This document shows, in pieces, positions 1 to 28,449 of a DNA stretch of 35,369 nucleotides. The stretch covers positions 1-35,369 of the forward strand of contig JAFTVW010000006.1 of NCBI GenBank assembly GCA_017465605.1. Direction: 5' to 3'. Each line of letters opens with the position of its first letter. Position 1 is the stretch's first letter. Both the position numbers and the translations under genes were made by a program. The notes under the pieces are model-generated. The model was given only the letters and a program-made list of their open reading frames with translations, made no database searches and was not told the origin of the DNA. The stretch is from Alistipes sp. GTDB taxonomy: Bacteria; Bacteroidota; Bacteroidia; Bacteroidales; Rikenellaceae.

Positions 1-47
1 ACGCCGCGCTTGTTTTTTGGTAAATCTACACCAACTATACGTGCCAT
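1..47 (-). CDS. rpsM: 30S ribosomal protein S13, N-terminal fragment (cut by window edge)
   Basis: Only the first 15 codons are inside the window. They read MARIVGVDLPKNKRG, the conserved start of S13, which sits in the head of the 30S subunit and contacts the P-site tRNA and the 50S bridge. It follows rpmJ by 31 nt in the usual spc/alpha order. The rest of the gene lies beyond base 1, so nothing can be said about its integrity. Confidence 0.93.
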   Translation of the reverse strand, partial: MARIVGVDLPKNKRG

Positions 48-78
48 AAATTCTTTACTTTAATTAATCGTTTGAATA

Positions 79-195
79 TTACCCTTGGCGCATTTTGAAT
101 TTAGGATTCTTCTTGCAGATAACGTAGAGCTTACCTTTACGCTTTACAATCTTGCAATCCTCGCTTCTCTTCTTGATTGATGCTTTTACTTTCAT
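79..195 (-). CDS. rpmJ: 50S ribosomal protein L36
   Basis: A 38-residue ORF beginning [14 protein letters not shown] and ending in MRQG. Length and sequence fit L36, a small late-assembly protein of the large subunit. Of the usual zinc ligands (C11, C14, C27, H33) only C14 and C27 remain; positions 11 and 33 are Ser and Phe. This is therefore a zinc-independent form, which to my knowledge is normal in Bacteroidota. It lies between infA (19 nt) and rpsM (31 nt). Confidence 0.95.
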
Positions 196-214
196 AATTT
201 TCAAGCAATCTTAA

Positions 215-433
215 TTATTTGTACCTAAAGGATATGCGACCCTTACTCAAATCGTAGGGGGTCATCTCCACTTTGACTTTATCTCCGGGCAGAATCTTGA
301 TATAGTGCATACGCATCTTGCCTGAGATATGAGCCGTGATAACGTGTCCGTTATCCAATTCGACACGGAACATTGCATTAGACAATGCCTCGATAATTGT
401 TCCGTCTCGTTCAATAGCAGTTTGTTTTGCCAT
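215..433 (-). CDS. infA: Translation initiation factor IF-1
   Basis: 72 residues with the single OB-fold of IF-1. Visible family marks are the [17 protein letters not shown] start, the [23 protein letters not shown] core and the [10 protein letters not shown] end. IF-1 binds the A site of the 30S subunit during initiation with IF-2 and IF-3. It is 11 nt downstream of map and 19 nt upstream of rpmJ, the standard spc-operon position. Full length, no anomalies. Confidence 0.97.
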
Positions 434-444
434 AGAGTCTTTAC

Positions 445-1218
445 TTAATTGTTAAGTGCCTGTTCGATTATATTAAAGTCTGTAAGTACGTCGGGACCAT
501 CTCGGCGGATTGCCACTGCATACTCGAAGTGAGCCGATGGTTTGCGGTCACGAGTGCGAACAGTCCAACCGTCGCGCTCGAAAACCACTGCTTTTGTACC
601 CATATTAATCATAGGTTCGATGCAGATAACCATACCCTCCTTCAACAGTGGGCCTCTGCCGCGTGCGCCAAAGTTGGGAACTTCGGGGTCTTCGTGCATT
701 TTTCTTCCCACACCGTGACCAACCAGTTCGCGCACTACGCCGTAGCCAAAGCTTTCGGCGTGTTGTTGCACAGCTGCTGATATGTCGCCTATGCGATTAC
801 CAACCTTTGCTTGTGCTACACCTTTACAAAGAGCTTCTTTGGTGACTTCAAGAAGTCGGCGCGCCTCTTCGCCTACATCACCTACGGCAAACGTATATGC
901 CGAATCACCAACAAACCCCTTCAAAAACGTGCCTAAATCAACCGACACAATATCACCATCTTCGATGACTCTATCACTGGGGATTCCGTGAACCACCTGC
1001 TCGTTTACCGATATGCAGGCTGATGCTGGAAAACCTTGATAGCCGAGGAATGCGGGTTCTGCGCCATTCGAGCGGATAAACTCCTCTGCAATCTTGTTAA
1101 GGTAGCCTGTGGTTACGCCCGGGCGGATATTGCGTCCTACCTCGGCGAGTGCGCGGCTAACCAAGAGATTATTCTCTCGCAAGATTTCAATTTCCTCGTC
1201 AGTTTTCAGATAAATCAT
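445..1218 (-). CDS. map: Type I methionine aminopeptidase
   Basis: 257 residues. It removes the initiator methionine from nascent proteins when the next residue is small. The dinuclear-metal ligands of the pita-bread fold are present: D94 (VSVDLG), D105 (VGDSAYTF), H168 ([12 protein letters not shown]), E201 (CIEPMINMG) and E232 (HFEYAVAI); H78 in VVHGIP matches the substrate-binding histidine. There is no N-terminal SH3-binding or zinc-finger extension. It lies between secY (102-nt gap with weak hairpins) and infA (11 nt), as in many spc operons. Confidence 0.97.
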
Positions 1219-1320
1219 CTTTGGTAATATATTTTACTCTTACTGTCCCGCTCTCGCGGGTTTGACTTTAATTCCTTTTACAGACTCCGATTACATTACA
1301 TACATTGAAATCGGTGACTC
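1219..1320 (-). other. secY-map intergenic spacer with small inverted repeats
   Basis: A 102-nt spacer, long for this cluster. It holds a CCCGC-tctc-GCGGG hairpin near 1247-1260 and a CCGATT/AATCGG pair around 1288-1315. Neither is followed by a T tract in the transcribed direction, so I do not call a terminator. It may be a processing site or simply a relaxed spacer. Confidence 0.4.
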
Positions 1321-2694
1321 TTAGTAGCGTCCCTGAATTCGACCAGTCTTCATCAAACCGTCGTAGTGACGCATCAACAAGTAGCTCTCAATCTGCTTTA
1401 GAGTGTCAAGAACTACACCCACCATAATCAACAACGATGTACCTCCGTAGAAGTAAGCAAACTGCTGCTGAACACCCAAGAACTTCATTGCCATACCGGG
1501 CATAATTGCCACCAAGGCCAAGAAGATTGAGCCGGGGAGAGTGATTCTTGTCATAATGGTATCGATATAGTTAACGGTCTGCTTACCGGGCTTAACACCT
1601 GGGATAAAACCACCGTTGCGCTTCATATCGTCTGCCATCATTTGGGGGTTGATGATAATCGCGGTATAGAAGTATGTAAAGGCGATTACCAACACTGCAA
1701 GTGTAAAATTGTACCAGAAGCTCTGAATGTTTGAGAACGCTGCCTGCAATCCTGGGATAAAGGCAGGAACCATAACAAGAGCCTGAGCAAAGATGATAGG
1801 CATTACGTTTGCCGCATTCATCTTCAATGGGATATACTGACGTACACCACCATACTGCTTGTTACCAATGATACGCTTTGCATACTGTACAGGTACCTTA
1901 CGAACTGCCTGAATAACAGCGATAGATACCAAGAACACCAAGAACAGCAACGCTAACTCGACGATAAACATAATGAGGCTACCCGATGAGGTCTGAACAC
2001 GAGCAGAGAGCTCGGCCAAGAGAGCCTGAGGCAGACGGGCAACAATACCAATCATAATGATCATCGACACACCGTTACCGATACCCTTATCGGTGATACG
2101 CTCGCCCAACCACATAGTGAACATAGTACCGGCGATAAGGATTACCGTAGCATACGCATAGAAGCCGAATGTTCCGCCATATACGAATGCAGTAGGCATT
2201 TGGTGATAGAGGTTGGCCACATAGGCCGGACCCTGAATGCACAATACTCCGATTGTGAGCAAACGAGTCCACTGGTTCATCTTGCGGCGGCCACTCTCAC
2301 CCTCTTTCTGCAACTTCTGAACTGCGGGAACCATAATACCCAACAGCTGAATGATGATAGATGCGGTGATGTAGGGCATAACTCCGAGAGCAAAAATTGC
2401 TGCGTTGGCGAATGCACCACCAGAGAATACGTCAAGCAAACCCAACAGGGTGTTGCTGTTCATCTGGTCTGCCAATGCCGAACCCGCGCCCAAAGCGTTG
2501 GGATCGATACCCGGAATTACCACAAAACAGCCCAAACGATATACAAGAAGCAAGCCGATAGTGTAGGCGATACGCTTACGTAGCTCCTCAATCTTGTATA
2601 TGTTTTTCAATGTTTCAACGAGTTTCTTGTTGGTCACCATCAATAGCGCGATAACGGCTACGATAATCAAACCAGCAATAACATACACGTTCAT
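1321..2694 (-). CDS. secY: Preprotein translocase subunit SecY with an extra N-terminal hydrophobic segment
   Basis: 457 residues; SecY is the channel of the Sec translocase in the inner membrane and works with SecE, SecG and SecA. The conserved body starts at about residue 23 (KKLVETLKNIYKIEELRKRI) and shows the plug-region VVIPGIDPNAL, TM7-8 and the C-terminal LLMRHYDGLMKTGRIQGRY. Before it lies an in-frame stretch, residues 1-22, with about 16 consecutive hydrophobic residues, enough for another membrane helix. The ORF is closed by TAA two codons before the ATG at 2694, so that ATG is the furthest possible start. An ATG at codon 19 (2640) would give a conventional N-terminus but leave 74 nt after rplO instead of 20. 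I favour the long form. Confidence 0.95.
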   Translation of the reverse strand: MNVYVIAGLIIVAVIALLMVTNKKLVETLKNIYKIEELRKRIAYTIGLLLVYRLGCFVVIPGIDPNALGAGSALADQMNSNTLLGLLDVFSGGAFANAAIFALGVMPYITASIIIQLLGIMVPAVQKLQKEGESGRRKMNQWTRLLTIGVLCIQGPAYVANLYHQMPTAFVYGGTFGFYAYATVILIAGTMFTMWLGERITDKGIGNGVSMIIMIGIVARLPQALLAELSARVQTSSGSLIMFIVELALLFLVFLVSIAVIQAVRKVPVQYAKRIIGNKQYGGVRQYIPLKMNAANVMPIIFAQALVMVPAFIPGLQAAFSNIQSFWYNFTLAVLVIAFTYFYTAIIINPQMMADDMKRNGGFIPGVKPGKQTVNYIDTIMTRITLPGSIFLALVAIMPGMAMKFLGVQQQFAYFYGGTSLLIMVGVVLDTLKQIESYLLMRHYDGLMKTGRIQGRY

Positions 2695-2714
2695 AATTCG
2701 TTACTCTTTTTATA

Positions 2715-3161
2715 TTACAACTTTTCTACGCTACCGCCAGCAGCTGCAATAGCAGCCTCTGCGCTCTTCGAGAAAGCGTGTGCAGTAACTGTAAGAGCCT
2801 TAGTTACGTTGCCGTTACCCAAGATCTTAACCTTATCGTTTGATGAGATAAAGCCAGCTGCAATCAAAGTCTCTACGTTGATTACGTTAAGCTCCTTCTT
2901 TGCTGCCAACTCCTCCAATGTTGAGAGGTTGATAGGCTTAAACTCTACACGCTTCAAGTTCTTGAAACCGAACTTTGGCAAACGACGCTGCAAAGGCATC
3001 TGACCACCCTCGAAACCAAGCTTGCGAGAGTAACCCGAACGAGACTTAGCACCCTTCAAACCACGTGTAGAATAGCCACCGTGACCTGAACCTGCGCCTC
3101 GGCCCACGCGCTTGTCGTGGTGTGTTGAACCCTGAGCGGGCTTCAAATTATTGAGTTCCAT
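2715..3161 (-). CDS. rplO: 50S ribosomal protein L15
   Basis: 148 residues. The basic Gly-rich N-terminus (DKRVGRGAGSGHGGYSTRGLKGAKSR) that threads into 23S rRNA and the folded C-terminal half with VKILGNGNVTKALTVTAHAFSK are both present. L15 is a late-assembly large-subunit protein. It lies between rpmD (27 nt) and secY (20 nt). Normal length, intact. Confidence 0.97.
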   Translation of the reverse strand: MELNNLKPAQGSTHHDKRVGRGAGSGHGGYSTRGLKGAKSRSGYSRKLGFEGGQMPLQRRLPKFGFKNLKRVEFKPINLSTLEELAAKKELNVINVETLIAAGFISSNDKVKILGNGNVTKALTVTAHAFSKSAEAAIAAAGGSVEKL

Positions 3162-3188
3162 TTTCAGTAATTCTTTTTTTCGTTAAAC

Positions 3189-3371
3189 TTACTTTACCTC
3201 CTCGACCTTTACGAGGTGCTTCACGCGCTCAATCATACCCTTGATGATAACTGAGTCGTCGTGCTCTACGGTCTGGTTAATCTTGCGAAGTCCCAAAGCC
3301 GCGAGGTTCTTGCGCTGCTGCGCTGTTGTGCCAATCTGGCTACGAACCTGTGTAATCTTCAATCTTGCCAT
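3189..3371 (-). CDS. rpmD: 50S ribosomal protein L30
   Basis: 60 residues, the typical bacterial L30 length. The start MARLKITQVRSQIGT and the LAALGLRKINQTVEH block identify the family. It sits between rpsE and rplO as in most spc operons. No anomalies. Confidence 0.96.
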   Translation of the reverse strand: MARLKITQVRSQIGTTAQQRKNLAALGLRKINQTVEHDDSVIIKGMIERVKHLVKVEEVK

Positions 3372-3388
3372 AGTTGTTCGCTCATTTA

Positions 3389-3907
3389 TTAACCGTTAAA
3401 CACCTTAGTCATTGAAATACCGCGAAGCTGTGCTACGCTGTGTGCATCACGCAACTCACACAATGCTGATACAGTAGCCTTTACAAGGTTGTGAGGGTTT
3501 GATGAACCCTTGCTCTTTGCAAGCACGTTCTTTACTCCTGCTGACTCCAATACGGCACGCATCGCACCACCGGCGATAATACCTGTACCCGGAGCTGCCG
3601 GACGAATCATAACCTCTGAACCACCGAAACGCATCTCCTGCTTGTGAGGAATTGTGCCGTTGATAATGGGAACCTTTACAAGATTCTTCTTTGCGTCCTC
3701 TACACCCTTGGCGATTGCCGAAGTAACCTCTGATGCCTTACCGAGGCCGTAGCCTACAACACCATTCTCGTTACCTACTACAACAATAGCCGAGAAGCTA
3801 AAAGTACGACCACCCTTTGTTACCTTCGTAACTCGGTTGATAGCCACGAGTCTATCCTTCAACTCGAGGTCGCTTGTACGAACTTTCTTTATGTTTGTAT
3901 TTGACAT
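3389..3907 (-). CDS. rpsE: 30S ribosomal protein S5
   Basis: 172 residues. The N-terminal double-stranded RNA-binding-like domain ([30 protein letters not shown]) is followed by the C-terminal domain with [27 protein letters not shown]5 sits at the mRNA entry side of the 30S subunit and affects decoding fidelity. The ATG is 5 nt from the rplR stop, so translation is probably coupled. Confidence 0.97.
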
Positions 3908-3912
3908 ATCGC

Positions 3913-4275
3913 TTAGAATTTAAGGCCACCCTCACGAGCAGCGTCGGCCAACATTTTTACTCTACCGTGATAGAGGTATCCGTTACGGTCGAATGACACT
4001 GTTGAGATACCCTTCTCGATTGCGCGCTGTGCAGCCAACTTACCTACCAAAGCGGCTACCTCACACTTATTCTTACCTGCTACCTCGGCAGCCAACTCCT
4101 TATCGAGTGATGAAGCTGTTGCCAAAGTTACGCCTGCAAGGTCATCGATAAACTGAACGTATATCTGCTTGTTGCTGCGGAATACGGTCATACGAGGCTG
4201 TTCGGGCGTTCCGTTTACAATCTTACGGATACGCATCTTAATCCTCTCTCTTCTTTCTATCTTTGTTAATGACAT
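3913..4275 (-). CDS. rplR: 50S ribosomal protein L18
   Basis: 120 residues with the L18 signature [19 protein letters not shown] and the C-terminal [27 protein letters not shown]18 binds 5S rRNA and, with L5, anchors it to the central protuberance. It is 18 nt after rplF and 5 nt before rpsE. Intact. Confidence 0.97.
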
Positions 4276-4293
4276 AATGCTTTGCTTATTTTA

Positions 4294-4878
4294 CTATTTT
4301 GATGCAGACTTACCGGCCTTGCGACGCAATACCTCGCCTACGAACTTAATACCCTTACCCTTATAAGGCTCTGGCTTACGCAATGAACGAATCTTCGCTG
4401 CTACCTGACCTACGAGCTGCTTATCAATACTCTTCAAGGTTACGATAGGGTTACCCTTCTTCTCTGTTACAGCTGTTGCGCTAACCTCAGCGGGAAGCAT
4501 CAACGCTACGTCGTGTGAGTAACCAAGGCTCATCTCCAAGATGTTGCCCTTTACCTCGGCCTTGAAACCTACACCTACGAGCTCCTGCTTGATCTCGTAG
4601 CCCTTAGATACGCCGATAACCATGTTGTTGATAAGTGCGCGGTACAAGCCGTGCATTGAACGGTGACGGGGCTGATTTGTAGGACGGCTAACCATTACGG
4701 CAGCGAGCTCCTTGCCCGTCTTAGCGTCGGTGTGAGTACCAACCTCTACCTTAATGTCTGAATCAACCTTCTGACTCAGTGTCCCAAGTGGCCCTTTCAC
4801 GCTTACCGTGTTGTCTGCCGCAACCTCTACGGTTACGCCTGCCGGTAAGATTACAGGTAATTTACCAATTCTTGACAT
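4294..4878 (-). CDS. rplF: 50S ribosomal protein L6
   Basis: 194 residues, slightly longer than the common 177-180 because of an Ala/Ser/Lys-rich C-terminal tail and a small insert near residue 50. The paired L6 folds are visible: MSRIGKLPVILPAGV at the N-terminus and PEPYKGKGIKFVGEVLRRKAGK near the end. L6 lies near the factor-binding site of the 50S subunit. It follows rpsH by 44 nt. Confidence 0.97.
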   Translation of the reverse strand: MSRIGKLPVILPAGVTVEVAADNTVSVKGPLGTLSQKVDSDIKVEVGTHTDAKTGKELAAVMVSRPTNQPRHRSMHGLYRALINNMVIGVSKGYEIKQELVGVGFKAEVKGNILEMSLGYSHDVALMLPAEVSATAVTEKKGNPIVTLKSIDKQLVGQVAAKIRSLRKPEPYKGKGIKFVGEVLRRKAGKSASK

Positions 4879-4922
4879 TTGTTTGTGTTTTTTAATTAAT
4901 TACTGCGTTTTGATTGCATCGA

Positions 4923-5321
4923 TTAGTAGATGTAGCACAATACCTCACCACCTACGTTCTCCTTGCGAGCCTTAGCGTCGGTCATTATACCCTTTGATGT
5001 TGAAAGGATTGCGATACCCAAACCGTTCAACACGCGAGGCATTGAGTCAACCGAAGCATACTGACGCAAACCTGGACGGCTTACACGCTTCAAATTCTTG
5101 ATTGCATTTGTCTTGGTTGCTGCGTCCCACTTCAAAGCGATCTTGATGGTTGGGTGACCCTTCTCGTCTGTGTCGAACTTGTAAGCCAAGATGTAACCCT
5201 GCTCGTAGAGAATCTATGTAATCTCTCGCTTAATTTTTGAGCCGGGAGCTTCAACCACTTTGTGGTTGGCTTTCACCGCGTTTCTAATTCGCGTGAGAAA
5301 ATCCGCAATTGGATCTGTCAT
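4923..5321 (-). pseudogene. rpsH: 30S ribosomal protein S8 gene with an in-frame amber codon at codon 36
   Basis: Read from the ATG at 5321 the frame gives [20 protein letters not shown] and continues to a normal S8 end ([12 protein letters not shown]), 132 codons in all, exactly family length. Codon 36 (5214-5216) is TAG where S8 relatives carry Lys in KEITKIL. The frame is otherwise perfect, so a single A-to-T change is the whole lesion. The only downstream start seen is a TTG at 5187-5189 ([10 protein letters not shown]), with GAGCAGGG just before it, which would lose the first 44 residues. S8 is a primary binder of 16S rRNA and is expected to be essential, so this is either a sequence error, a real pseudogene covered by another copy, or a suppressed codon. 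TAG acts as a normal stop in rplC and rpsN nearby. Codons before the TAG use ATT/AAA/CGA/AGA; codons after it use ATC/AAG/CGT. Confidence 0.85.
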
Positions 5322-5530
5322 AGTTGAATTAAAAGTTAAAAATTAATAAATCTGTTAATAATATTTTGCTTTCTCAGTGCTCCTCCTCATCTCCCCGCTC
5401 CCTCCATTGCATTTCACCTTTCTTCAACCCTCCCGTCTTCATTCACCATCGTACACCGACAGGCCAAACGGAGAATCTTCTGAAACTATGCGAGTTAGGG
5501 CAAAATTCGTTGGCACCCTGAAAATGCGCG

Positions 5531-5557
5531 CAAATATACGCATAAAATTTCAATAAA
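5531..5557 (-). promoter_or_regulatory. Putative promoter for rpsH and downstream spc genes
   Basis: On the minus strand a perfect TATATTTG (5531-5538) matches the Bacteroidota -7 box TAnnTTTG. The -33 element is weak (GGTTTATTG region instead of TTTG at 19-21 nt). Transcription would start about 200 nt ahead of the rpsH ATG. With the terminator after rpsN, it would make rpsH onward an independent unit. Confidence 0.55.
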
Positions 5558-5818
5558 CCGCGTATTTCGGACTTATAATTAGGCATTTGCGACGATTATT
5601 GCAAAAAATAACGTAAAGATAACATTAGCGACACGCGCAACCGCCACTTCTGGGCACAACAAAAGGTGCAACCGAAACCATACGCATAGTACGGCACTGC
5701 CACTACCTCTCGTCACATAACCCACACATAGGCTCTACAACAACCCGACTACTCACAAAAGCATCGTCGGTTCATCATCTGCTATGCATACGTTATTCTT
5801 CCATTATCGCCTAAGCCA

Positions 5819-6052
5819 TCAGCCACCGCGATCATTGAAAGTGTAACTCGACACCGCACCCTTCACCTGCACCTGTACCGAGAAGTTATCGCCGTATGAC
5901 GACACTTTCCCCGATACTCGGCCACAAGTTACTTGGGACACTGTATCCGTATAGAACTCGCCTTTGCCATCGTAGCATCTGAGGTCATAAAGATATTCAC
6001 CTACGCCCCATCTCCCACGCCCCATCTCCCACGACATTGGCACCAATGGCAC
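5819..6052 (-). pseudogene. Unidentified ORF remnant between rpsN and rpsH
   Basis: 77 codons without an assured start (GTG/TTG/ATG options cluster at the 5' end), ending in TGA. The translation alternates polar and hydrophobic residues (YLYDLRCYDGKGEFYTD, VSGKVSSYGDNFSVQVQVKG), which looks like beta-rich protein rather than noise, and codon choice is coding-like. I do not recognise the family. The 5' end is preceded by a duplicated CGTGGGAGATGGGG unit and then stop codons, so it is most likely the C-terminal end of a lost gene. Confidence 0.35.
6003..6032. repeat. 15-bp tandem duplication
   Basis: CGCCCCATCTCCCAC occurs twice head to tail. It sits at the 5' end of the ORF remnant and gives the odd Gly/Arg/Trp-rich start of its translation. 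Probably a slippage product in non-functional DNA. Confidence 0.6.
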
Positions 6053-6182
6053 CTACAAATAGCGGATTCTAGAACTCCCAACTAAACCATATGCCCGCAG
6101 CAAATCAATTTGCCAAAGCAAATAGCTCATTTGGAGAGATAAATCAACGGGGTAAGGCTCGCGCCTTCCGCACGTCGATTGC

Positions 6183-6220
6183 AAAAAAGTCGCTCGGGGC
6201 GCACTCCGCGCCCCTGCGAC
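6183..6220 (-). terminator. Intrinsic terminator after rpsN
   Basis: Minus-strand reading gives a two-part stem, GTCGC outside and GGGGCGC inside, closing on a 5-nt GGAGT loop, followed at once by TTTTTT. It starts 10 nt after the rpsN stop. This is a strong rho-independent terminator by eye and is misplaced for a gene cluster normally transcribed straight through. Confidence 0.8.
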
Positions 6221-6230
6221 ACTGTAACTA

Positions 6231-6527
6231 CTACCAGCTAGCCTTCTTCACACCGGGAATCAGACCGCTTGATGCCATCTCACGGAACTGAATACGGCTG
6301 ATACCGAACTGGCGCATATAACCCTTCGGACGACCCGTCAGCTTACAACGGTTGTGCTGGCGGATAGGGTTAGAGTTGCGGGGCAACTTTGAGAGGGCAA
6401 TCCAAGCCTCCTCGTGATCCATCTCACCACTCTTAACCTTAGCTGCAATCTCCTCACGCTTGTGAGCGTAGCGGTTTGCAAGTTTCACACGCTTAACCTC
6501 GCGTGCCTTCATTGATTCTTTTGCCAT
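6231..6527 (-). CDS. rpsN: 30S ribosomal protein S14 (zinc-free form)
   Basis: 98 residues. The long form without the CxxC zinc motifs, ending [40 protein letters not shown]14 is a late-assembly protein of the 30S head. Its ATG is 3 nt from the rplE stop. It ends in TAG (6231-6233) followed within 10 nt by a strong terminator hairpin, so it may be the last gene of the upstream transcript. Confidence 0.97.
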
Positions 6528-6530
6528 ATC

Positions 6531-7094
6531 CTATTGGTTGTTCTTTTTAGCGTTCTTGAAAGGAAGACCGAACTCGCGAAGAAGAGCATAACCCTCCTCG
6601 TCTGTATTAGCGGTTGTAACAAATGTAATCTCCATACCGAAAATCTTTGTGATCTTGTCGATATCGATCTCGGGGAAGATAATCTGCTCGGTGATACCGA
6701 GTGTGTAGTTACCACGACCATCGAACTTCTCGTTAATACCCTTGAAGTCGCGGACACGAGGCATAGCCACAGCGATAAGACGCTCCAAGAACTCGTACAT
6801 ACGATCTGCACGAAGCGTTACACGAACACCGATAGGCATTCCCTTACGCAACTTGAAGTTAGAAATATCCTTGCGTGACTTTGTCTGAACCGCCTTTTGG
6901 CCGGTAATCTGAGTAAGCTCTGCCTGAGCCACGTCGATAAGCTTCTTATCGGCTACGGCCTGACCCATACCCTGATTGATGACAATCTTCTCCAGTTTGG
7001 GACACTGCATTACGCTGGTGTATCCAAACTCCTTCATAAGAGCAGGAATAATCTGCTCCTTATACTGCGTTTTGAGTGTTGGTACGTATGCCAT
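6531..7094 (-). CDS. rplE: 50S ribosomal protein L5
   Basis: 187 residues. L5 binds 5S rRNA and contacts S13 across the subunit bridge. Visible blocks are [18 protein letters not shown], the [26 protein letters not shown] loop and the [26 protein letters not shown] core. The ATG overlaps the rplX stop codon by one base (TAATG), a classic coupling arrangement. Intact. Confidence 0.97.
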
Positions 7095-7417
7095 TATTTA
7101 ATCTCCTCTCCTGACTTTTTAGCGTAACGAACTAATTTACCTTTTGCATCTGCCTTACGACCTACGCGAGTGGGCTTGCCGCTCTTGGGGTCGAGAACCT
7201 GCAAGTTTGAGATGTGAATAGGAGCCTCCTGCTCTACAATTCCACCCTGGGGATTCTGCGCATTAGGCTTAGTAGCCTTCTTACACATATTTACGCCCTC
7301 TACGATAGCACGCTGCTTGGCAGCCTCTACCTTCAAGACTTTACCCTGCTGGCCTTTGTTATCGCCCGCATTTACGTAAACAATGTCCCCTTTCTTGATA
7401 TGTAACTTAACTGACAT
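7094..7417 (-). CDS. rplX: 50S ribosomal protein L24
   Basis: 107 residues with an N-terminal KOW motif ([24 protein letters not shown]) and the [23 protein letters not shown] segment. L24 is one of the two assembly initiators of the large subunit and lies near the exit tunnel. It follows rplN by 20 nt and overlaps rplE by one base. Confidence 0.97.
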
Positions 7418-7437
7418 CTTGAAATCTGTTTTTAATA

Positions 7438-7803
7438 TTACAATACTTCAGGGGCCAATGAGATGATCTTCATATACTGATCACGAAGCTCACGAGCTAC
7501 CGGACCGAAGATACGGGTACCACGCATCTCACCCTGATTGTTAAGGAGAACTACTGCATTCTCGTCGAAACGAATGTAAGAACCGTTTGCACGGCGAATC
7601 TCCTTAGTTGTTCTTACTACTACCGCCTTTGAAACGGTGCCCTTCTTAACGTCGCCAGAGGGGCTTGCGCTCTTCACTGTTACGACAATCTTATCGCCGA
7701 TTGACGCATAACGACGCTTTGTTCCGCCAAGCACGCGAATGCAAAGAACCTCTTTTGCACCGCTGTTGTCTGCTACTACGAGTCTACTTTCTTGCTGTAT
7801 CAT
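7438..7803 (-). CDS. rplN: 50S ribosomal protein L14
   Basis: 121 residues, the standard length. [27 protein letters not shown] and [18 protein letters not shown] are diagnostic. L14 forms part of the intersubunit bridge and the docking site of silencing factor RsfS. It starts 2 nt after the rpsQ stop. Confidence 0.97.
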
Positions 7804-7805
7804 AA

Positions 7806-8060
7806 CTACTTAGCTCTTTCAATAATTTGTACTAATCTCCAACGCTTGGTTTTGCTCAACGGGCGAGTCTCCATAATGCGAACTGTATCGCCCTCCTTTA
7901 CGGTTTCGTCCAAGCACTCAGCAACGAACTTCGTTGTCTTGTTCATAAACTTACCGTAGATGGGGTGCTTTACCTTACGCTCTACCGCAACCACAATGGT
8001 CTTCTCCATTTTGTTGCTGACAACCAACCCAATACGCTCTTTTCTAAGATTTCTTTCCAT
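7806..8060 (-). CDS. rpsQ: 30S ribosomal protein S17
   Basis: 84 residues from the ATG at 8060 ([21 protein letters not shown]), ending [20 protein letters not shown]. An ATG five codons upstream (8075) is in frame but overlaps the end of rpmC and adds MLITT, not seen in the family, so I chose the internal start. S17 is an OB-fold primary binder of 16S rRNA. Confidence 0.95.
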
Positions 8061-8068
8061 AGTGGTAA

Positions 8069-8263
8069 TTAACATTTAGGGTTCTTTTGACGCAGAATTG
8101 TCAGCATACGAGCTATATCTCTGCGAGACTTTTTAATTATCGAAGGATTCTCAACAGGTGATACTGCGTGCTGCACCTTCAAGCTAGCGAGCTTCGCCTT
8201 CTCTGCATCGATGCGCTCCTGCAAATCCTGAACTGACATATCCTTTATTTCAGCACTTTTCAT
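8069..8263 (-). CDS. rpmC: 50S ribosomal protein L29
   Basis: 64 residues from the ATG at 8263 ([20 protein letters not shown]). The two-helix pattern and the [17 protein letters not shown] end identify L29, which lies at the tunnel exit near the docking site of trigger factor and SRP. A TTG four codons upstream would extend it but is not needed. It follows rplP by 19 nt. Confidence 0.95.
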
Positions 8264-8282
8264 CTTTATTCTCAATTAAGGA

Positions 8283-8702
8283 TTATTCAACGTAGTCACG
8301 TCTTACAATAAACTTAGTTGTAATAGGCAACTTTTGTGCGCCCAGACGGAGTGCCTCCTGTGCAATCTCCAAGGGTACACCCTCGGCCTCGAAGAGGATA
8401 CGTCCCGGTGTAACGGGAGCTACGAATCCTTCTGGATTACCCTTACCCTTACCCATACGTACCTCAGCGGGCTTCTTTGTGATGGGCTTATCGGGGAAGA
8501 TTCGAATCCAAATCTGTCCCTCACGCTTCATATAACGTGTAATGGCCTGACGAGCTGCCTCGATCTGACGACCTGTGATCCAGGTCGATTCAAGTGCCTT
8601 GATTCCGAATGAACCGTATGCAAGCTGGTTTCCTCTCTGAGCGAAACCCTTCATACGACCCTTCTGCATTCTTCTAAACTTGGTCTTTTTTGGCTGTAAC
8701 AT
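8283..8702 (-). CDS. rplP: 50S ribosomal protein L16
   Basis: 139 residues. [48 protein letters not shown] and [22 protein letters not shown] are conserved L16 blocks near the A-site tRNA and the peptidyl transferase centre. It is placed between rpsC (28 nt) and rpmC. Intact. Confidence 0.97.
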
Positions 8703-8730
8703 AATGTCTTTTCGCTTTAAAAGGTCCTAC

Positions 8731-9465
8731 TTACTTGTTGTTATTACGTCTTTTACGGGGTGCGCCCTTGCCGCCACGGTGCTGCTGTGAGCCACCCTGC
8801 TGCTGCGACGCTGCGCCCTGAATCTCAAACAGGTCACGCTTGCCGTAAACTGTTCCGTGGCAGATCCAAGTCTTGATACCGAGGATACCTACCTTTGTAA
8901 GTGCCTCTGCCAAGCAGTAATCTACATCTGCACGGAATGTGTGAAGAGGAATACGACCCTCCTTTATTGTCTCTGAACGAGCCATCTCGGCGCCGCCTAC
9001 ACGACCCGAAATCTGTACCTTGATACCCTCTGCACCCATACGCATTGTTGATGCGATAGTTGTCTTGATGGCACGGCGGTAAGATACACGGCCCTCCAAC
9101 TGACGAGCGATATTGTTGGCAACGATAACAGCATCAACCTCTGGACGCTTTACCTCGAAGATATTGATCTGTACCTCCTTGCCTGTAAGCTTCTTCAACT
9201 CCTCTTTGAGCTTGTCAACCTCCTGACCGCCCTTACCGATGATGATACCGGGGCGAGCTGTTGAGATGGTTACTGTTACAAGCTTCAATGTACGCTCGAT
9301 GATAATCTTAGAAATACTTGCCTTGGCCAAACGGACATTCAAGTACTTACGAATCTTAGCGTCTTCTACCAATTTCTCTGAGAAATCCTTACCACCATAC
9401 CAGTTAGAGTCCCAACCTTTGATGATACCAAGACGGTTTGCTATTGGATTTACTTTCTGTCCCAT
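8731..9465 (-). CDS. rpsC: 30S ribosomal protein S3
   Basis: 244 residues. The N-terminal KH domain carries [14 protein letters not shown] (the GxxG loop); the C-terminal S3 domain contains [35 protein letters not shown]3 forms the mRNA entry channel with S4 and S5. The last ~30 residues ([28 protein letters not shown]) form a low-complexity basic tail longer than in E. coli. It starts 4 nt after the rplV stop. Confidence 0.97.
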
Positions 9466-9469
9466 TTGC

Positions 9470-9880
9470 TTAGTTATTTTCTGAGGTTACCATTTTATCT
9501 ACTACGATGGTTACGTGGTTTGAACGCTTACGAATGCGGTGTGCGCGACCCTGTGGAGCGGGTTGAATGCGCTTGAGCATACGGCCTCCATCGACCATAA
9601 TCTCCTTAACACACAATGTAACGTCCTCCAAACGCTCGTTCTCGTTCTTAGCCTCCCAGTTAGCGATTGCTGACTTGAGGAGCTTCTCCAAACGGATAGA
9701 TGCCTCCTTCTTTGAGTAACGAAGGATACCCAGTGCCTTATTAATCTCTACACCGCGAATGATATCTGCTACCAAGCGCATCTTGCGGGGAGAGGTAGGG
9801 CAATCACGCATAATAGCGATTGCTTTCTGCTTCTTCTCAGCCTTTAATTTCTCGGCTCTTATTGCTTTTCTTGCACCCAT
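9470..9880 (-). CDS. rplV: 50S ribosomal protein L22
   Basis: 136 residues. The globular part ([27 protein letters not shown]) is followed by the hairpin that reaches into the exit tunnel ([33 protein letters not shown]). A basic extension of about 20 residues precedes the conserved start. No deletion is seen in the hairpin loop associated with macrolide resistance. It starts 7 nt after rpsS. Confidence 0.97.
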
Positions 9881-9887
9881 TGTCTAA

Positions 9888-10157
9888 CTATTTTTTCTTG
9901 TTACCTGCGTGACCACGGAAATTGCGGGTTGGAGCGAACTCGCCCAATTTGTGACCCACCATATTCTCTGTTACATATACGGGAATAAACTTATTTCCGT
10001 TGTGGACAGCGATTGTCTGACCTACGAAGTCAGGCGAAATCATACTTGCTCGTGACCAAGTCTTAATGACTGTCTTCTTGTTTCCCTCTGCCTGAGCTAC
10101 AACCTTAGCTTCGAGCTTGGGATCAATGAATGGTCCTTTTTTTAATGAACGGCTCAT
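9888..10157 (-). CDS. rpsS: 30S ribosomal protein S19
   Basis: 89 residues. [66 protein letters not shown]-type blocks identify S19, which pairs with S13 in the 30S head. It follows rplB by 17 nt. Intact. Confidence 0.97.
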
Positions 10158-10174
10158 TATGATACTCTATTTAA

Positions 10175-10999
10175 TTATTTTTTACGCTTTGAAATAATAA
10201 ACTTAGAGGTTGTCTTCTTAGGATTACGAGTCTTATAACCCTTAGCCAACAATCCCTTGCGTGAACGAGGATGACCTCCCGAAGCACGGCCTTCACCACC
10301 ACCCATTGGGTGATCTACGGGGTTCATCACTACGCCTCGGTTGTGAGGACGACGGCCCAACCAACGGCTGCGACCTGCCTTACCTGAGCTTTCGAGGTTG
10401 TGATCTACGTTAGATACAACTCCTACTGTTGCACGGCAAGTTACGAGTACCATACGAGTCTCACCTGAAGGCAACTTGATGATAGCGAATTTTCCTTCGC
10501 GTGCCAAAAGCTGAGCATACGAACCGGCTGAACGTGCCATTGCGGCACCCTGACCGGGGTAGAGTTCAATATTGTGCACCACAGTACCCAATGGAATCTC
10601 GCTCAAAAAGAGTGTATTTCCAACCTCAGGTGCTACGCCTGCGCCGCTCATCACGGTCTGGCCTACCTGCAAGCCGTTAGGTGCGATGATATAGCTCTTC
10701 TCACCATCGGCATATACTATAAGTGCGATACGTGCTGTACGATTTGGATCGTACTCAATAGACTTCACAGTTGCTGCAATACCGTCCTTGGCGCGCTTGA
10801 AGTCAACGTTACGGTACATCTGCTTGTGACCACCACCAATGTAGCGTACGGTCATCTTACCTGTATTGTTACGGCCACCAGAGCTCTTCTTAGGGCTAAG
10901 CAACGACTTCTCAGGTGCTGTGCGAGTTACCTCGTCGAATGTACCAATAATCTTATGTCTTGTACCAGCTGTTACTGGCTTAAACTTTCTTACTGCCAT
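10175..10999 (-). CDS. rplB: 50S ribosomal protein L2
   Basis: 274 residues. L2 is a primary 23S rRNA binder needed for subunit joining and peptidyl transfer. The N-terminal OB/SH3 region ([19 protein letters not shown]) and the C-terminal [25 protein letters not shown] are clear. The position that is the second His of HPHGGGEG in E. coli is Met here, which I believe is usual in Bacteroidota. It starts 5 nt after rplW. Confidence 0.97.
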
Positions 11000-11004
11000 A
11001 GTTC

Positions 11005-11295
11005 TTAGATGTTACTGTAAAAATCTATCTTATCTCCATCCTTCAAGGTTACGATTGCCTTCTTGAAGTTATTAGTGCGACCCTCCAAGAGACCTGCCTT
11101 GGTGTAACGGCTTTTGAGCTTACCCATATAACGGATAGTGTTTACATCGGTAACGACTACGTTGTACATCTGCTCTACGGCGTTACGAATCTGCAGCTTG
11201 TTAGCTCGTACGTCAACGATAAAACCGTAGCGGTTCAGTTTCTCGCCCTGAATCGTCATCTTCTCGGTCAAAATAGGCTTAATAATTACTTCCAT
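11005..11295 (-). CDS. rplW: 50S ribosomal protein L23
   Basis: 96 residues. [14 protein letters not shown] and [31 protein letters not shown] mark L23, which sits at the tunnel exit and docks trigger factor and SRP. It lies 13 nt after rplD and 5 nt before rplB. Intact. Confidence 0.97.
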
Positions 11296-11308
11296 CTTTC
11301 TTTCGTTT

Positions 11309-11935
11309 TTAAGCTAACATTACATTCAATACATTTTCTGCACCCTCTACCATTACCAATACATTGGCATTCATCACCTCATAAGTGTTGATGTTGGCTG
11401 CCAAGATAGGCTTAATTGAGGGGATATTGCGGCATGACAACTGAAGATTTACATTGCCCTCCGGCAGGACAAGCAACACCTTCTTGTTGGCTACCTTCAA
11501 AGCCTCAGTCAAAGCTACTACCTGCTTAGTCTTTGGAGCCTCCATTTGGAGATTCTCGATTACGCTGATAGCACCTGCCTGTGCCTTGTAAGTAAGTGCG
11601 CTACGGCGTGCCAATCGCTTGAGCTTCTTGTTAAGCTTGAAGCTATAATCGCGTGGTACTGGACCGAAGATACGGCCACCACCTGGAAACAAAGGTGACT
11701 TGATGCTACCGCAACGTGCACCACCTGTACCCTTCTGACGCTTAAGCTTACGAGTAGAACCTGCTACCTCGTTACGCTGCTTAGCCTTGTGAGTTCCCTG
11801 ACGCTGATCAGCCAAATACTGCTTAACGTCGAGGTAGATAGCGTGGTCATTAGCCTCCACGCCGAAGACTGCATCCGAAAGGACTACCTTACGACCAGTC
11901 TCTTGTCCTTGTGTGTTCAAAACAGCTAATTCCAT
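11309..11935 (-). CDS. rplD: 50S ribosomal protein L4
   Basis: 208 residues from the ATG at 11935 ([19 protein letters not shown]). A TTG four codons upstream would overlap rplC and is not used. The tunnel loop ([32 protein letters not shown]) is intact. In E. coli, L4 represses its own S10 operon; no equivalent leader structure could be recognised here. It starts 1 nt after the rplC TAG stop. Confidence 0.96.
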
Positions 11936-11936
11936 A

Positions 11937-12551
11937 CTACTTCTCAATTGTTAAATAAGCACCCTTAGCCCCGGGAATTGAACCCTTAACCAAAATAAGG
12001 TTGTTCTCGGGAATTACCTTTAATACTTTGAGGTTAAGAATCTTAACCTGATCACCACCCATACGGCCGGCCAAACGCTTGCCTTTGAATACGCGTGATG
12101 GATAAGACGAAGCACCAAGTGAACCTGGCTTACGCTGACGGTTGTGCTGACCGTGAGTCTGACCACCCACACCACCAAAACCGTGACGCTTTACTACGCC
12201 CTGAAAGCCTTTACCCTTAGAGATCCCTGTTACGTCAACCCAGTCCTCCTCTGTGAACATATCAACGGTCAAAGTATCACCAAGGTTCACCTCTGGCATC
12301 TCCTTAAATTCAGCCATCTTGCGCTTGGGAGTTGTGCCCGCTTTCTTGAAGTGACCTAACAAACTGTTGCTGGTGTGCTTTTCACTCTTGTCGTCATAGG
12401 CAATCTGAACAGCCTCGTAAGAATCCTTCTCGAGGGTCTTGATTTGCGTAACTACACACGGACCAGCCTCAATGACAGTGCATGGTATATTCTTACCCTC
12501 GGCACTGTAAACGGAAGTCATTCCGATTTTCTTTCCAATTAGTCCTGACAT
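11937..12551 (-). CDS. rplC: 50S ribosomal protein L3
   Basis: 204 residues. [28 protein letters not shown] and [33 protein letters not shown] identify L3; the last block carries the extension that reaches the peptidyl transferase centre and the glutamine methylation region. It ends in TAG (11937-11939), showing that amber is a genuine stop in this genome. It is separated from rpsJ by an unusual 218-nt spacer. Confidence 0.97.
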
Positions 12552-12769
12552 TTTTCTGTCGAATTACGTTTGTTAAATTAAAAGTGATTTGTGTTTATAA
12601 TAAATATATGTATATTCATTTTCATTACCCCAAACTCTCACCTGCTGAACTCCTCTTCCTCCTCTTAATCAAAGGCCTCGATTCTCATTTTGGCTGCTCG
12701 TTTGGGACCGCACAACCCTGGGGCGCAACAAATCAATGCGCCCCACGTTGGCTATATTTTAGCTTAATA
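12552..12769 (-). other. rpsJ-rplC spacer with a strong stem-loop
   Basis: On the minus strand the spacer holds a perfect 9-bp stem (12719-12745), a purine-rich tract containing AGGAGG (around 12645-12670) and an AT-rich run up to the rplC ATG. A TATATTTA sequence near 12600-12608 is one base off the -7 box, with TTTG 22 nt upstream, so a secondary promoter is possible but weak. No ORF is supported. Confidence 0.5.
12719..12745 (-). promoter_or_regulatory. Perfect 9-bp stem-loop downstream of rpsJ
   Basis: TGGGGCGCA and TGCGCCCCA flank a 9-nt loop. No T tract follows, so it is not a standard terminator. It could be an RNase processing or RNA stability element, or a protein-binding leader for rplC. 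Confidence 0.55.
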
Positions 12770-13075
12770 TCAGACCTTAATCTCAACCTCTACGCCTGAT
12801 GGAAGCTCCAACTTCATCAATGCGTCGATTGTCTTGGGTGTTGACGAATAGATGTCGATAATACGCTTGAAAGTGCAGAACTGGAACTGCTCACGAGCCT
12901 TCTTGTTTACGAAAGTAGAGCGGTTAACCGTAAAAATCTGCTTGCGTGTTGGCAGGGGTACCGGACCGCTTACCATAGCATCGGTAGCCTTCACTGTCTT
13001 CACGATCTTCTCAGCCGACTTGTCAACCAAGTTGTGGTCGAAAGATTTAAGCTTAATTCTAATCTTCTGGTTCAT
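12770..13075 (-). CDS. rpsJ: 30S ribosomal protein S10
   Basis: 101 residues with the S10 pattern [54 protein letters not shown] and the [11 protein letters not shown] end. S10 also serves as NusE in transcription antitermination with NusB. It lies 14 nt after fusA. In this cluster the S10 and str parts are joined, so no separate S10 promoter is evident. Confidence 0.97.
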
Positions 13076-13089
13076 ATTGTTTACTCTTA

Positions 13090-15198
13090 TTATTCTAAAT
13101 CCTTACGTTTGCCGCTCTTCTCGATGATCTCCTTTGCCAAGTTAGCAGGAACCTCCTCGAAGTGCGAGAACTCCATAGATGATGTTGCACGGCCTGATGA
13201 AATGGTACGCAATACTGTTACATAACCAAACATCTCTGAAAGGGGAACCTTGGCCTTAACCACGCGGGCTGTACCCTTAGACTCCATACCCTGAATCTGA
13301 CCGCGACGCTTGTTCAAATCACCGATGATATCACCCATATTCTCCTCAGGAGTTACAACCTCCACTGACATAACGGGCTCCATAATTACTGAACCTGCCT
13401 TTGGAGCTGCCTGACGGAAACCGTTGCGGGCGCAAATCTCGAATGAGAGCTGGTCTGAATCGACTGGGTGGAAAGAACCATCTTTCAAGGTAACCTTCAT
13501 CGCGTCGATTGTGTAGCCGGCCAAAGCACCATTTGCCATAGCTGACTCGAAGCCCTTCTGAACTGCGGGGATAAACTCCTTAGGAACGTTACCACCCTTA
13601 ACCTCGTCAACGAATGTAAGACCTGTCTTACCCTCCTCTGCGGGACCAATCTCGAAGATGATATCGGCGAACTTACCACGACCACCAGTCTGCTTCTTGA
13701 ATACCTCACGGTGCTGAACAGTCTGAGTAAGAGCCTCCTTGTAGTTAACCTGAGGTGCACCCTGATTGATCTCTACACCGAACTCGCGACGCAAACGGTC
13801 AACGATGATATCCAAGTGGAGCTCACCCATACCGCTGATGATAGTCTGACCAGACTCCTCGTCGGTACGAACTGTAAATGTTGGATCCTCCTCTGCGAGC
13901 TTAGCCAATGCGATACCGAGCTTATCCAAATCCTTCTGAGTCTTAGGCTCAACTGCAAGACCGATAACGGGCTCGGGGAATGTCATCTGCTCCAATACGA
14001 GTGGTGCGTTCTCTGCTGTAAGAGTATCACCTGTGCGAATCTCCTTGAAACCTACTGCTGCGCAGATATCACCTGCCTCAACACGCTCCAAAGGATTCTG
14101 CTTGTTAGCGTGCATCTGATAGATACGGCTGATACGCTCACGCTTACCGCTACGTGCGTTCAAAACGTATGAGCCAGCGTCCAATGCTCCTGAGTAAACA
14201 CGTACGAATGCCAAACGACCTACGAAAGGATCGGTTGCAATCTTAAATGCCAATCCGCAGAATGGCTCTGACACACTAGCCTGACGTGTCTCTGTCTCGT
14301 CAGTCTTAGGGTTAACACCCTCAACTGCGGGAACGTCCAATGGAGATGGAAGGAACGCCATAATATAATCGAGCAACTTCTGTACACCCTTGTTGTGGAA
14401 TGAAGAACCACACATCATAGGTACCAATGACATATTCATTGTTGCTGTACGGATAGCTGCGATAAGCTCATCGGGAGTGATTGAATCGGGATCCTCGAAG
14501 AACTTCTCCATAAGAGCATCGTCAGTTGCTGCAACCTCCTCGATAAGCTTTGCACGCCACTCGGCTGCCTCAGCCTTCATATTCTCGGGAATCTCTTTAA
14601 TCTCGAAGTTATCGCGAACGGTCTTGTCGTCGTAGTAGTAGATTGCATTATTATATATAAGGTCAATCAAACCCTCGAACTTATCCTCAACACCGATAGG
14701 CAATACTACGGGAAGAGCAGTTGCTCCGAAGTGCTCCTTAATCTGAGCGCAAACTGCCAAGAAGTCAGCACCTGTACGGTCCATCTTGTTAACGTAACCG
14801 ATACGAGGAACGTTGTACTTATCAGCCTGACGCCATACTGTCTCTGACTGAGGCTCTACACCGCCCACTGCACAGAAAGTTGCAACAGCACCGTCCAAAA
14901 CACGCAATGAACGCTCTACCTCTACGGTAAAGTCAACGTGTCCCGGAGTGTCAATCAAGTTGATCTGATACTGGTTGCCTTTGTAGTTCCAGAACGCTGT
15001 TGTAGCGGCAGAAGTGATGGTAATACCACGCTCCTGCTCCTGAGCCATCCAGTCCATTGTGGCCGAACCCTCGTGAGTCTCACCAATCTTGTGGGTCTTA
15101 CCCGTATAGAAAAGGATACGCTCTGAGGTCGTTGTCTTACCGGCATCGATGTGAGCCATGATACCGATATTACGAGTATATTTAAGATCTCTTGCCAT
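13090..15198 (-). CDS. fusA: Translation elongation factor G
   Basis: 702 residues. The GTPase domain has the P loop [14 protein letters not shown], switch [10 protein letters not shown] and [10 protein letters not shown]; later blocks include GMGELHLDI in domain III and the domain IV region [14 protein letters not shown] drives translocation and, with RRF, ribosome recycling. It is cotranscribed with rpsG upstream (16 nt) and rpsJ downstream. Length and motifs are those of the main housekeeping copy. Confidence 0.98.
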
Positions 15199-15214
15199 TT
15201 AACTCTCTGTTTTA

Positions 15215-15691
15215 TTAGAATCTGAAGTGTGCAAACGCCTTGTTAGCCTCCGCCATACGATGCATCTCCTCCTTACGCTTGAATGCAGCACCCTGCTGGT
15301 TGTAGGCATCAACAATCTCCGATGCGAGCTTCTCTGCCATTGACTTGCCGGCGCGCTTACGCGAATAAAGGACAAGGTTTTTCATTGAAATTGAAACTTT
15401 GCGCTCCGGTCTAACCTCCATAGGTACCTGGAATGTTGCACCACCGATGCGCTTTGACTTAACTTCGACTTGGGGTGTGATATTCTCAAGAGCCTGTTTC
15501 CAGATTTCCAGCGGAGATTTATCAGCATCCTTCATCTTCTTGCTTACCAACTCCAAAGAATCATAGAAGATGGTGTAAGCAATACTCTTCTTTCCATCCA
15601 GCATCAAATTGTTCACGAAACGAGTTACCTCAACATCGTTGAACTTAGGATCCGGAAGTAGAATTCGCTTTCTAGGCTTAGCTTTTCTCAT
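15215..15691 (-). CDS. rpsG: 30S ribosomal protein S7
   Basis: 158 residues starting [19 protein letters not shown] and containing [26 protein letters not shown]7 nucleates the 30S head and lines the E site. In E. coli it autoregulates the str operon. It follows rpsL by 31 nt. Confidence 0.97.
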
Positions 15692-15722
15692 TTTGTTTTC
15701 CTGATTTAGTTCTGTTTAATTT

Positions 15723-16106
15723 TTACTTCTTTGCAGCCTTGGGACGCTTAGCACCGTACTTAGAACGACGCTGACGACGACCATCTACACCTGCTGAATC
15801 CAAAGCACCGCGTACTAAGTGGTAACGTACACCTGGGAGGTCCTTAACACGACCACCGCGTACCAACACAATTGAGTGCTCCTGCAAGTTGTGACCTTCA
15901 CCGGGGATGTAGGCGTTGACCTCCTTGCCATTGGTCAATCTTACACGCGCCACCTTACGCATAGCCGAGTTCGGCTTCTTTGGGGTCGTAGTGTACACAC
16001 GGGTACATACGCCACGACGCTGGGGACACGCTGCGAGTGCTGGAGACTTACTCTTATCCTCCATGCTAACTCGACCGTTTCTTACTAACTGTTGAATAGT
16101 TGGCAT
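15723..16106 (-). CDS. rpsL: 30S ribosomal protein S12, first gene of the cluster
   Basis: 127 residues. [37 protein letters not shown] and [26 protein letters not shown] are diagnostic. Both lysines at which streptomycin resistance usually arises (in PKKPNSA and GGRVKDLPG) are unchanged. The Asp in VKDLPG is the known RimO methylthiolation site. A promoter box lies about 70 nt upstream, so this is the lead gene. Confidence 0.98.
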
Positions 16107-21545: not shown

Positions 21546-22445
21546 ATGTTGAATAAAATCAAATGCCTATTAGTGATTGCTACATCACTATTGGCAATAA
21601 ACACACAGGCACAAGATATGACCGTAAAATTGTGGGACAACTCATCAGCTCCCCACTCAAACAACCTTACAGGCCCCGAAAAAGATGAGGGCGAAGTGCG
21701 TATTTCAAACACCACAGAGGCCGTACTATACATCTATGAGGCTGCGGCTGATAAGGCTACGGGGCAGGCCATTGTTATCTGCCCGGGCGGTGGATATTGG
21801 TTGTTGGCAATGGGTCACGAGGGTCACGAATTGGCTAAATGGCTGGCTGAGAATGGTATCACCGCAGCCGTATTGAAATATCGTATGCCCAACGGCAATG
21901 TGCAAGTTCCGATGGAGGACGCAGCCGAGGCTGTTCGCTATATGAAGAAGGTATATCCCAAACGCGACAAGCTCTCGCAGGTGGGAATTTCGGGTTTCTC
22001 GGCTGGTGGTCACTTGGCCGCTTCGACAGGAGCGGGAGCATTGGAGGCCAATGGCGATACAAGCGAGCGAGCATTGCTTCGCCCCGACTTTATGGTTTTG
22101 TTCTATCCCGTAATTTCGTGCAGTCCTAAATACTTTCACGCAGGCTCATTTAACAACCTGCTCGGTAAAGGTTATACCGAGGAGCTAAGCCAAAAGTGGT
22201 CACCTGACTTGCTGGCATCAGAGAAGACGCCACAAGCTCTATTTATCCTCTCGGACGACGACAAGGCAGTGAAGCCTATCAATAGTATCCTGCTCTACAA
22301 CCGATTGAAGGAGTTGGGCAAGCCCGCATCATTGCATATTCTGCCAGAGGGTGGTCACGGCTGGGGTATGAAGGATTCATTCCGCTACAAGGCTGTATGG
22401 CAGCAGACTGTGCTCGACTATTTGAAGCACATTAACCAAAAATAG
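21546..22445 (+). CDS. Exported alpha/beta hydrolase, acetylxylan-esterase-like
   Basis: 299 residues with signal peptide (MLNKIKCLLVIATSLLAINTQAQ). The pattern PGGGYWLLAMGHEG forms the oxyanion region, S152 lies in GFSAGGH, an acidic trio D237-D239 (LSDDDKAV) holds the catalytic Asp, and H271 lies in EGGHGWG. This fits the small carbohydrate esterases (acetyl esterase/lipase class) that deacylate plant polysaccharides, though the substrate cannot be fixed from sequence. It is related to both domains of the preceding gene, which ends 30 nt upstream, and the next gene starts 9 nt downstream. The stop codon is TAG. Confidence 0.85.
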   Translation: MLNKIKCLLVIATSLLAINTQAQDMTVKLWDNSSAPHSNNLTGPEKDEGEVRISNTTEAVLYIYEAAADKATGQAIVICPGGGYWLLAMGHEGHELAKWLAENGITAAVLKYRMPNGNVQVPMEDAAEAVRYMKKVYPKRDKLSQVGISGFSAGGHLAASTGAGALEANGDTSERALLRPDFMVLFYPVISCSPKYFHAGSFNNLLGKGYTEELSQKWSPDLLASEKTPQALFILSDDDKAVKPINSILLYNRLKELGKPASLHILPEGGHGWGMKDSFRYKAVWQQTVLDYLKHINQK

Positions 22446-24991: not shown

Positions 24992-24992
24992 T

Positions 24993-25022
24993 TCAAAATT
25001 AAGAATTCAAAATTCAAAATTA
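24993..25022. repeat. AATTCAAAATT direct repeats
   Basis: Three partly overlapping copies of AATTCAAAATT just after the stop codon. The same unit reappears at 35350-35369. Simple AT-rich repeats of this kind are common at Bacteroidales gene ends. Confidence 0.6.
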
Positions 25023-25024
25023 AC

Positions 25025-25061
25025 TAATCCCCTGTCTAACATCGAGTTAGATAGGGGATTA
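25025..25061. terminator. Bidirectional terminator between convergent genes
   Basis: A 16-bp stem (TAATCCCCT... paired with ...AGGGGATTA, one G-T pair) closed by a 5-nt loop, with T-rich sequence on both sides. It separates the plus-strand enzyme cassette from the minus-strand nucleotidyltransferase gene. Confidence 0.8.
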
Positions 25062-28279: not shown

Positions 28280-28357
28280 TTTGGGGAGGAAAGTAGCATT
28301 ACCGATTGAGATGTCGCTTCTCTCGCTTTGGAAGCCTGCATACGGCCGCTGGCCGTA
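28217..28357 (+). repeat. Direct repeat, copy 1: 3' end of nadK plus trailing hairpin
   Basis: This copy spans the last 20 codons of nadK, the stop and about 78 nt beyond, ending in the hairpin TACGGCC-gct-GGCCGTA (28341-28357). It matches copy 2 (28456-28598) almost exactly over the coding part and for about 10 nt past the stop, diverges for about 40 nt, then matches again from CGCTTTGGAAGCC to the hairpin. Confidence 0.9.
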
Positions 28358-28449
28358 ATTACAAGTGCTGACCCACCCCCTAAATCCCCCGCCTCGGGCA
28401 GGGGACTTTGGTCGCCGTTGGCTCCGAATAGAGTAAACCTTTGGTTTAA

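Follow-up and report, generated by a model that had tools for sequence, protein, structure and literature searches.

What does an in-frame amber codon in the gene for ribosomal protein S8, an essential protein, say about the organism that carries it? The question arises from the window analysed here, a stretch of 35,369 nucleotides that makes up contig C57 of the assembly of an Alistipes-like gut bacterium (GCA_017465605.1, hereafter G000; 64 contigs, 96.14% complete, with a contamination estimate of 4.31%). Its rpsH gene (4923..5321, reverse strand; 132 codons) is interrupted at codon 36 by a TAG, read directly in the sequence at 5214..5216 on the same strand.

The interrupted rpsH frame

Apart from the TAG the frame from 5321 to 4923 is open and matches Pfam Ribosomal_S8 along its entire length; in a Pfam search of the assembly PF00410 scored 164.7 bits with one TAG inside the match. 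A preceding sequence-only reading had thus correctly described a stop within a frame that otherwise codes for full-length S8. It had also proposed a translational restart at a TTG near 5187. This codon is present at 5189-5187 and opens a frame of 88 codons (4923..5189, reverse strand). Names of window genes other than rpsH were derived from the translations alone, without family searches, and Rfam gave no match in the window at gathering scores.

Codon 36 in the genus and in the nearest relative

S8 matches were obtained in 111 of 180 genomes of the genus, at 114 places, 106 of them full-length and 8 partial. Only one of the 106 full-length copies contains an internal stop, the one in the window, and none of the relatives examined in this set shares it. 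Conservation of the in-frame TAG in relatives, as would be looked for under TAG reassignment or amber suppression, was accordingly not observed. Three of the eight partial matches lack the N-terminal part (G176:C51, G169:C198 and G177:C126). The first of these (G176:C51:55-348) begins at contig base 55 and contains an internal TAA rather than a TAG, the only other stop in the genus search. The residue encoded at codon 36 is variable: 67 of 107 distinct relatives have K, 12 E, 10 R, 8 Q, 6 D and 4 N, as counted from 112 loci after removal of repeated DNA and of the window's own locus (one further locus, L089, ended short of the codon).

The nearest relative found, genome G149, is 97% identical at the DNA level over 501 bases and has a lysine at codon 36. 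Besides the stop, the window rpsH differs from that of G149 by eight synonymous codons and by no amino acid. All eight lie behind the stop, while the codons ahead of it are identical in both. The absence of amino-acid differences indicates that the frame behind the stop has not decayed. Neither additional inactivating changes nor numerous amino-acid changes, as expected of a pseudogene, were thus found relative to G149, although a very recent inactivation would look alike.

The comparison was extended codon by codon to 17 window genes, rpsH among them, in which 292 codons differ synonymously, 29 differ in the amino acid and a single stop occurs, that in rpsH. For 14 further genes tblastn revealed no stop or broken frame; the remaining 9 of the 40 listed window genes stay open, outside this comparison. 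With the 16 other genes and the 14 covered by tblastn clean, a generally high error rate is unsupported. Viral contigs were scanned with a pattern for each of the two alleles of the codon 36 site, without a match, and the titles and abstract openings of the literature matches listed mention no nonsense codon in a bacterial rpsH.

Decoding of TAG

The sequence-only reading had noted TAG as an ordinary stop in rplC, rpsN and uppS. All three do end in TAG, and so do rplF, rplE, rpsQ, rpsS and the gene at 21546-22445; in the list of 40 window genes, from which some short genes were left out, the stops are TAA in 31 cases, TAG in 8 and TGA in one. Two of the genes ending in TAG flank rpsH directly, rpsN on its upstream and rplF on its downstream side. 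Release factor RF1 is also present, encoded by prfA at C17:32379-33452 (486.8 bits compared to a cut-off of 423.25). Since RF1 is there and TAG is in normal use, the doubt cast earlier on a genome-wide reassignment of this codon holds, and such a reassignment is rejected on these two observations.

The search for a tRNA with a CUA anticodon, likewise suggested from the sequence alone, detected no tRNA with a CTA, TTA or TCA anticodon among the 43 tRNA genes that Rfam located in the assembly and ARAGORN typed; as Phe-GAA, Ile-GAT and Ala-TGC were not recovered, this set is incomplete.

A second rpsH on contig C13

The description of the interrupted gene as the only rpsH is valid for the window but not for the assembly, where the Pfam search detected an intact second copy (G000:C13:1650-2039). 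Contig C13 starts within rplE and continues via rpsN, rpsH and infA to rplQ and further. Its first 6,967 bases (C13:1-6967) correspond to window positions 1..7012 on the reverse strand, covering the genes from a partial rplE up to the beginning of rpsM, with 86.1% identity over 1-5358 and 87.8% over 6163-7012; the spacer between rpsN and rpsH aligns between the duplicates across only about 100 bases, at 77%. At the very end of the window's contig 99 bases (1..99, reverse strand) are identical to C13:6869-6967. Both C57 and C13 terminate within their overlap. Beyond it each part of the cluster occurs on one contig: within the assembly rpsM to rplQ are found on C13 only, apart from 47 matching bases at the C57 terminus, and window positions 7013-16106, from the end of the overlap to rpsL, on C57 only, save for a 192-base match of 68% in an EF-G-like gene of C13.

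Two rpsH copies, on the short contigs C71 and C50, were also seen in genome G054, possibly another composite bin.

Relatedness does not stay constant along C13. When the contig was compared to G149 in steps of 500 bases, identity was 80-92% up to base 6500 (one step, in the spacer, is missing), 91-98% over 6501-13,000 and 71-92% thereafter. At sites that tell G149 from genome G151, C13:1-6868 agrees with G149 in 241 cases and with G151 in 495, while C13:6968-9999 agrees with G149 in 296 and with G151 in 54. The change can be placed between about 6595 and 6967, an interval whose last part is the 99-base identity with the window's end. C13 is already closer to G149 between 6595 and 6867, although a few sites differ from the window. 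As this stretch is G149-leaning but differs from the window, the right part of C13 need not stem from the very same strain, and room should be left for its being a sister strain of the window's. Window positions 1-9467 are 94.3% identical to G149. The simplest reading of these comparisons would be that the window continues into C13 at position 6968 and that at least the first 6.6 kb of that contig derive from another, G151-like Alistipes. The second rpsH then probably belongs to a neighbour lineage.

The sequence-only reading had considered a second rpsH elsewhere as one way to account for the stop. Such a gene exists in the assembly, but the segment bearing it, which is attached to sequence resembling the genome's own, leans to another Alistipes lineage; this makes admixture likelier than a backup gene. 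The view of the C13 copy as a plain backup is weakened by the change of relatedness within the contig.

A second switch and the composition of the bin

A similar change is seen at a second locus. The end of contig C48 (locus L059), compared to G149 in steps of 150 bases, is 94-100% identical over 601-1350 and 85% identical in the next step, and behind the tRNA-Trp gene at 1501-1574 identity falls to 62-73% save for the last 64 bases (91%). Contig C45 bears an overlapping stretch that is 93-99% identical to G149. Its start (locus L058) overlaps the end of C48 by about 1.1 kb at 74% identity, including tRNA-Trp and most of nusG. The nusG gene is thus present twice in the bin, the C48 copy being cut by the contig end (the names tuf and nusG rest on the translations, without a family search). 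C48 and C13 may owe their foreign parts to different organisms. Two changes of relatedness, both at conserved loci, argue for admixture during assembly or binning rather than for one recombination event.

Single-copy core genes in two divergent copies (rplE to infA including rpsH, at 86-88%, and nusG) and abrupt changes of relatedness at conserved stretches (C13 around 6595-6967 and C48 near tRNA-Trp) are thus both found, and the bin looks like a composite of closely related Alistipes. It is further of note that the other half of the window is only 74-90% identical to G149. At 30 tRNA-flanking loci of G000 identity to G149 spans 75-97%: 22 loci are below 85%, seven are at 86-97% and one is without a long match. 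Because the other half of the window and most tRNA loci are this divergent, G149 is not the same species, and the ribosomal half of the window, for all its likeness to G149, could consequently itself be admixed.

Composite metagenome-assembled genomes have been described by Shaiber and Eren (2019; PMC6550520). G000 resembles their case in carrying single-copy core genes twice and in combining distinct related populations in one bin. It is unlike it in that the admixture is small (contamination estimate 4.31%) and sits at contig ends as well as inside a contig.

Origin of the stop

A patchwork assembly, together with the fact that no examined relative has the stop, makes an artefact most likely, and not new biology. 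From these sequence comparisons we put the probability at about 0.75 that the TAG in rpsH reflects a consensus error at one base or a minority allele that is not viable. The window would be one contig of a bin in which closely related Alistipes are mixed, and its rpsH would carry one wrong base, introduced as an error of the assembly consensus or captured with a minority allele that does not sustain growth. The amber codon would then be no working feature of the organism; living cells of the species would have an intact rpsH in the same place and produce normal S8 from it. The intact copy on C13 would most likely come from a co-occurring Alistipes lineage and would have been joined to the genome's downstream cluster via the conserved infA/rpmJ/rpsM stretch. 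We infer the join to be an assembly chimera rather than the product of recombination in vivo. Single-base nonsense artefacts and minority alleles do occur in draft assemblies, and the present case resembles them in affecting one base, as a singleton, in an essential gene that is otherwise conserved. It differs from artefacts that were confirmed by reads in that the wrong base is proposed from sequence comparison. Of the four explanations put forward in the sequence-only reading, a sequence error seems to fit best; a second rpsH is indeed present in the assembly, and suppression is left without a suppressor tRNA among the 43 found.

It is conceivable but unlikely that the organism truly has both copies, having gained the rplE-infA block from another Alistipes by recombination, so that C13 represents a true junction and its rpsH supports growth while the native gene decays. 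The intact copy is after all joined to sequence that resembles the genome's lineage, and homologous recombination would also leave its junction in a stretch of high identity. On the other hand, the second switch, near tRNA-Trp, speaks for assembly or binning, C57 and C13 both end inside their overlap with the upstream cluster confined to the window's contig within the bin, and apart from the stop the native rpsH is free of signs of decay. Quite improbable to us is a genuine TAG that is read through by near-cognate decoding or by an unseen suppressor tRNA, providing enough full-length S8. An inserted Gln or Lys would probably be harmless since the 107 relatives vary at codon 36 and tolerate many residues there, and a suppressor might be hidden by the incompleteness of the tRNA set. 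Against this stand the lack of a matching anticodon among the tRNA genes that were found, the presence of RF1 together with the regular use of TAG to end 8 of the 40 listed genes (rpsN and rplF included), and the absence of the stop from all relatives examined.

Very improbable is the stricter version according to which the TAG is fixed in the species and ribosomes pass it, in the sole native rpsH, by programmed readthrough or with the help of an unrecognised suppressor. If this were true, the supply of S8 and hence 30S assembly would depend on readthrough. TAG recoding occurs in crAss-like phages of Bacteroidetes, and an in-frame TAG in a Bacteroidales setting recalls that system; unlike the phage cases, rpsH is a chromosomal ribosomal gene, a suppressor tRNA was not found among the 43, and TAG serves as a normal stop. 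Hardly credible is an N-terminally truncated S8 made by restart at the TTG at 5189-5187. The 88-codon frame does begin there, but its product would be without the first 44 residues in a genus where 106 of 114 S8 matches are full length, and G149 has the very same codons ahead of the stop.

Under the preferred reading of a wrong base or a non-viable minority allele, the amber codon carries little weight as biology and most likely falls away. What it does provide is a note of caution: related Alistipes lineages meet in this bin at conserved ribosomal and tuf/tRNA-Trp loci, and contig joins and 'second copies' at such loci should not be taken for duplication or horizontal transfer without read evidence.

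The rpsN-rpsH spacer and an intergenic repeat

The spacer between rpsN and rpsH (5322..6230, reverse strand) measures 909 bases and is long in the genus. Its length could be measured in 100 of the 112 loci: it is 596-1201 bases in 36 loci with an S8 at least 88% identical (the window included, and a few contigs doubled), 14-285 bases in 59 loci with an S8 of at most 70% identity, and from 112 to 1945 bases in five intermediate loci. Two parts of the spacer are largely conserved in 31 aligned loci, a block at about 5525-5600 (reverse strand) containing TATATTTG and an AT-rich leader ahead of the rpsH start codon (5322-5350, reverse strand). TATATTTG resembles the Bacteroidetes -7 element, and in Alistipes rpsH might be transcribed from a promoter of its own.

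Elsewhere in the window, the intergenic stretches 24989-25060 and 28341-28428 have matches at dozens of positions across G000, G149 and G151. The first of them lies between convergent gene ends and contains AATTCAAAATT repeats and a hairpin of 16 pairs (z -6.8); the AATTCAAAATT motif recurs at the right end of the window's contig.
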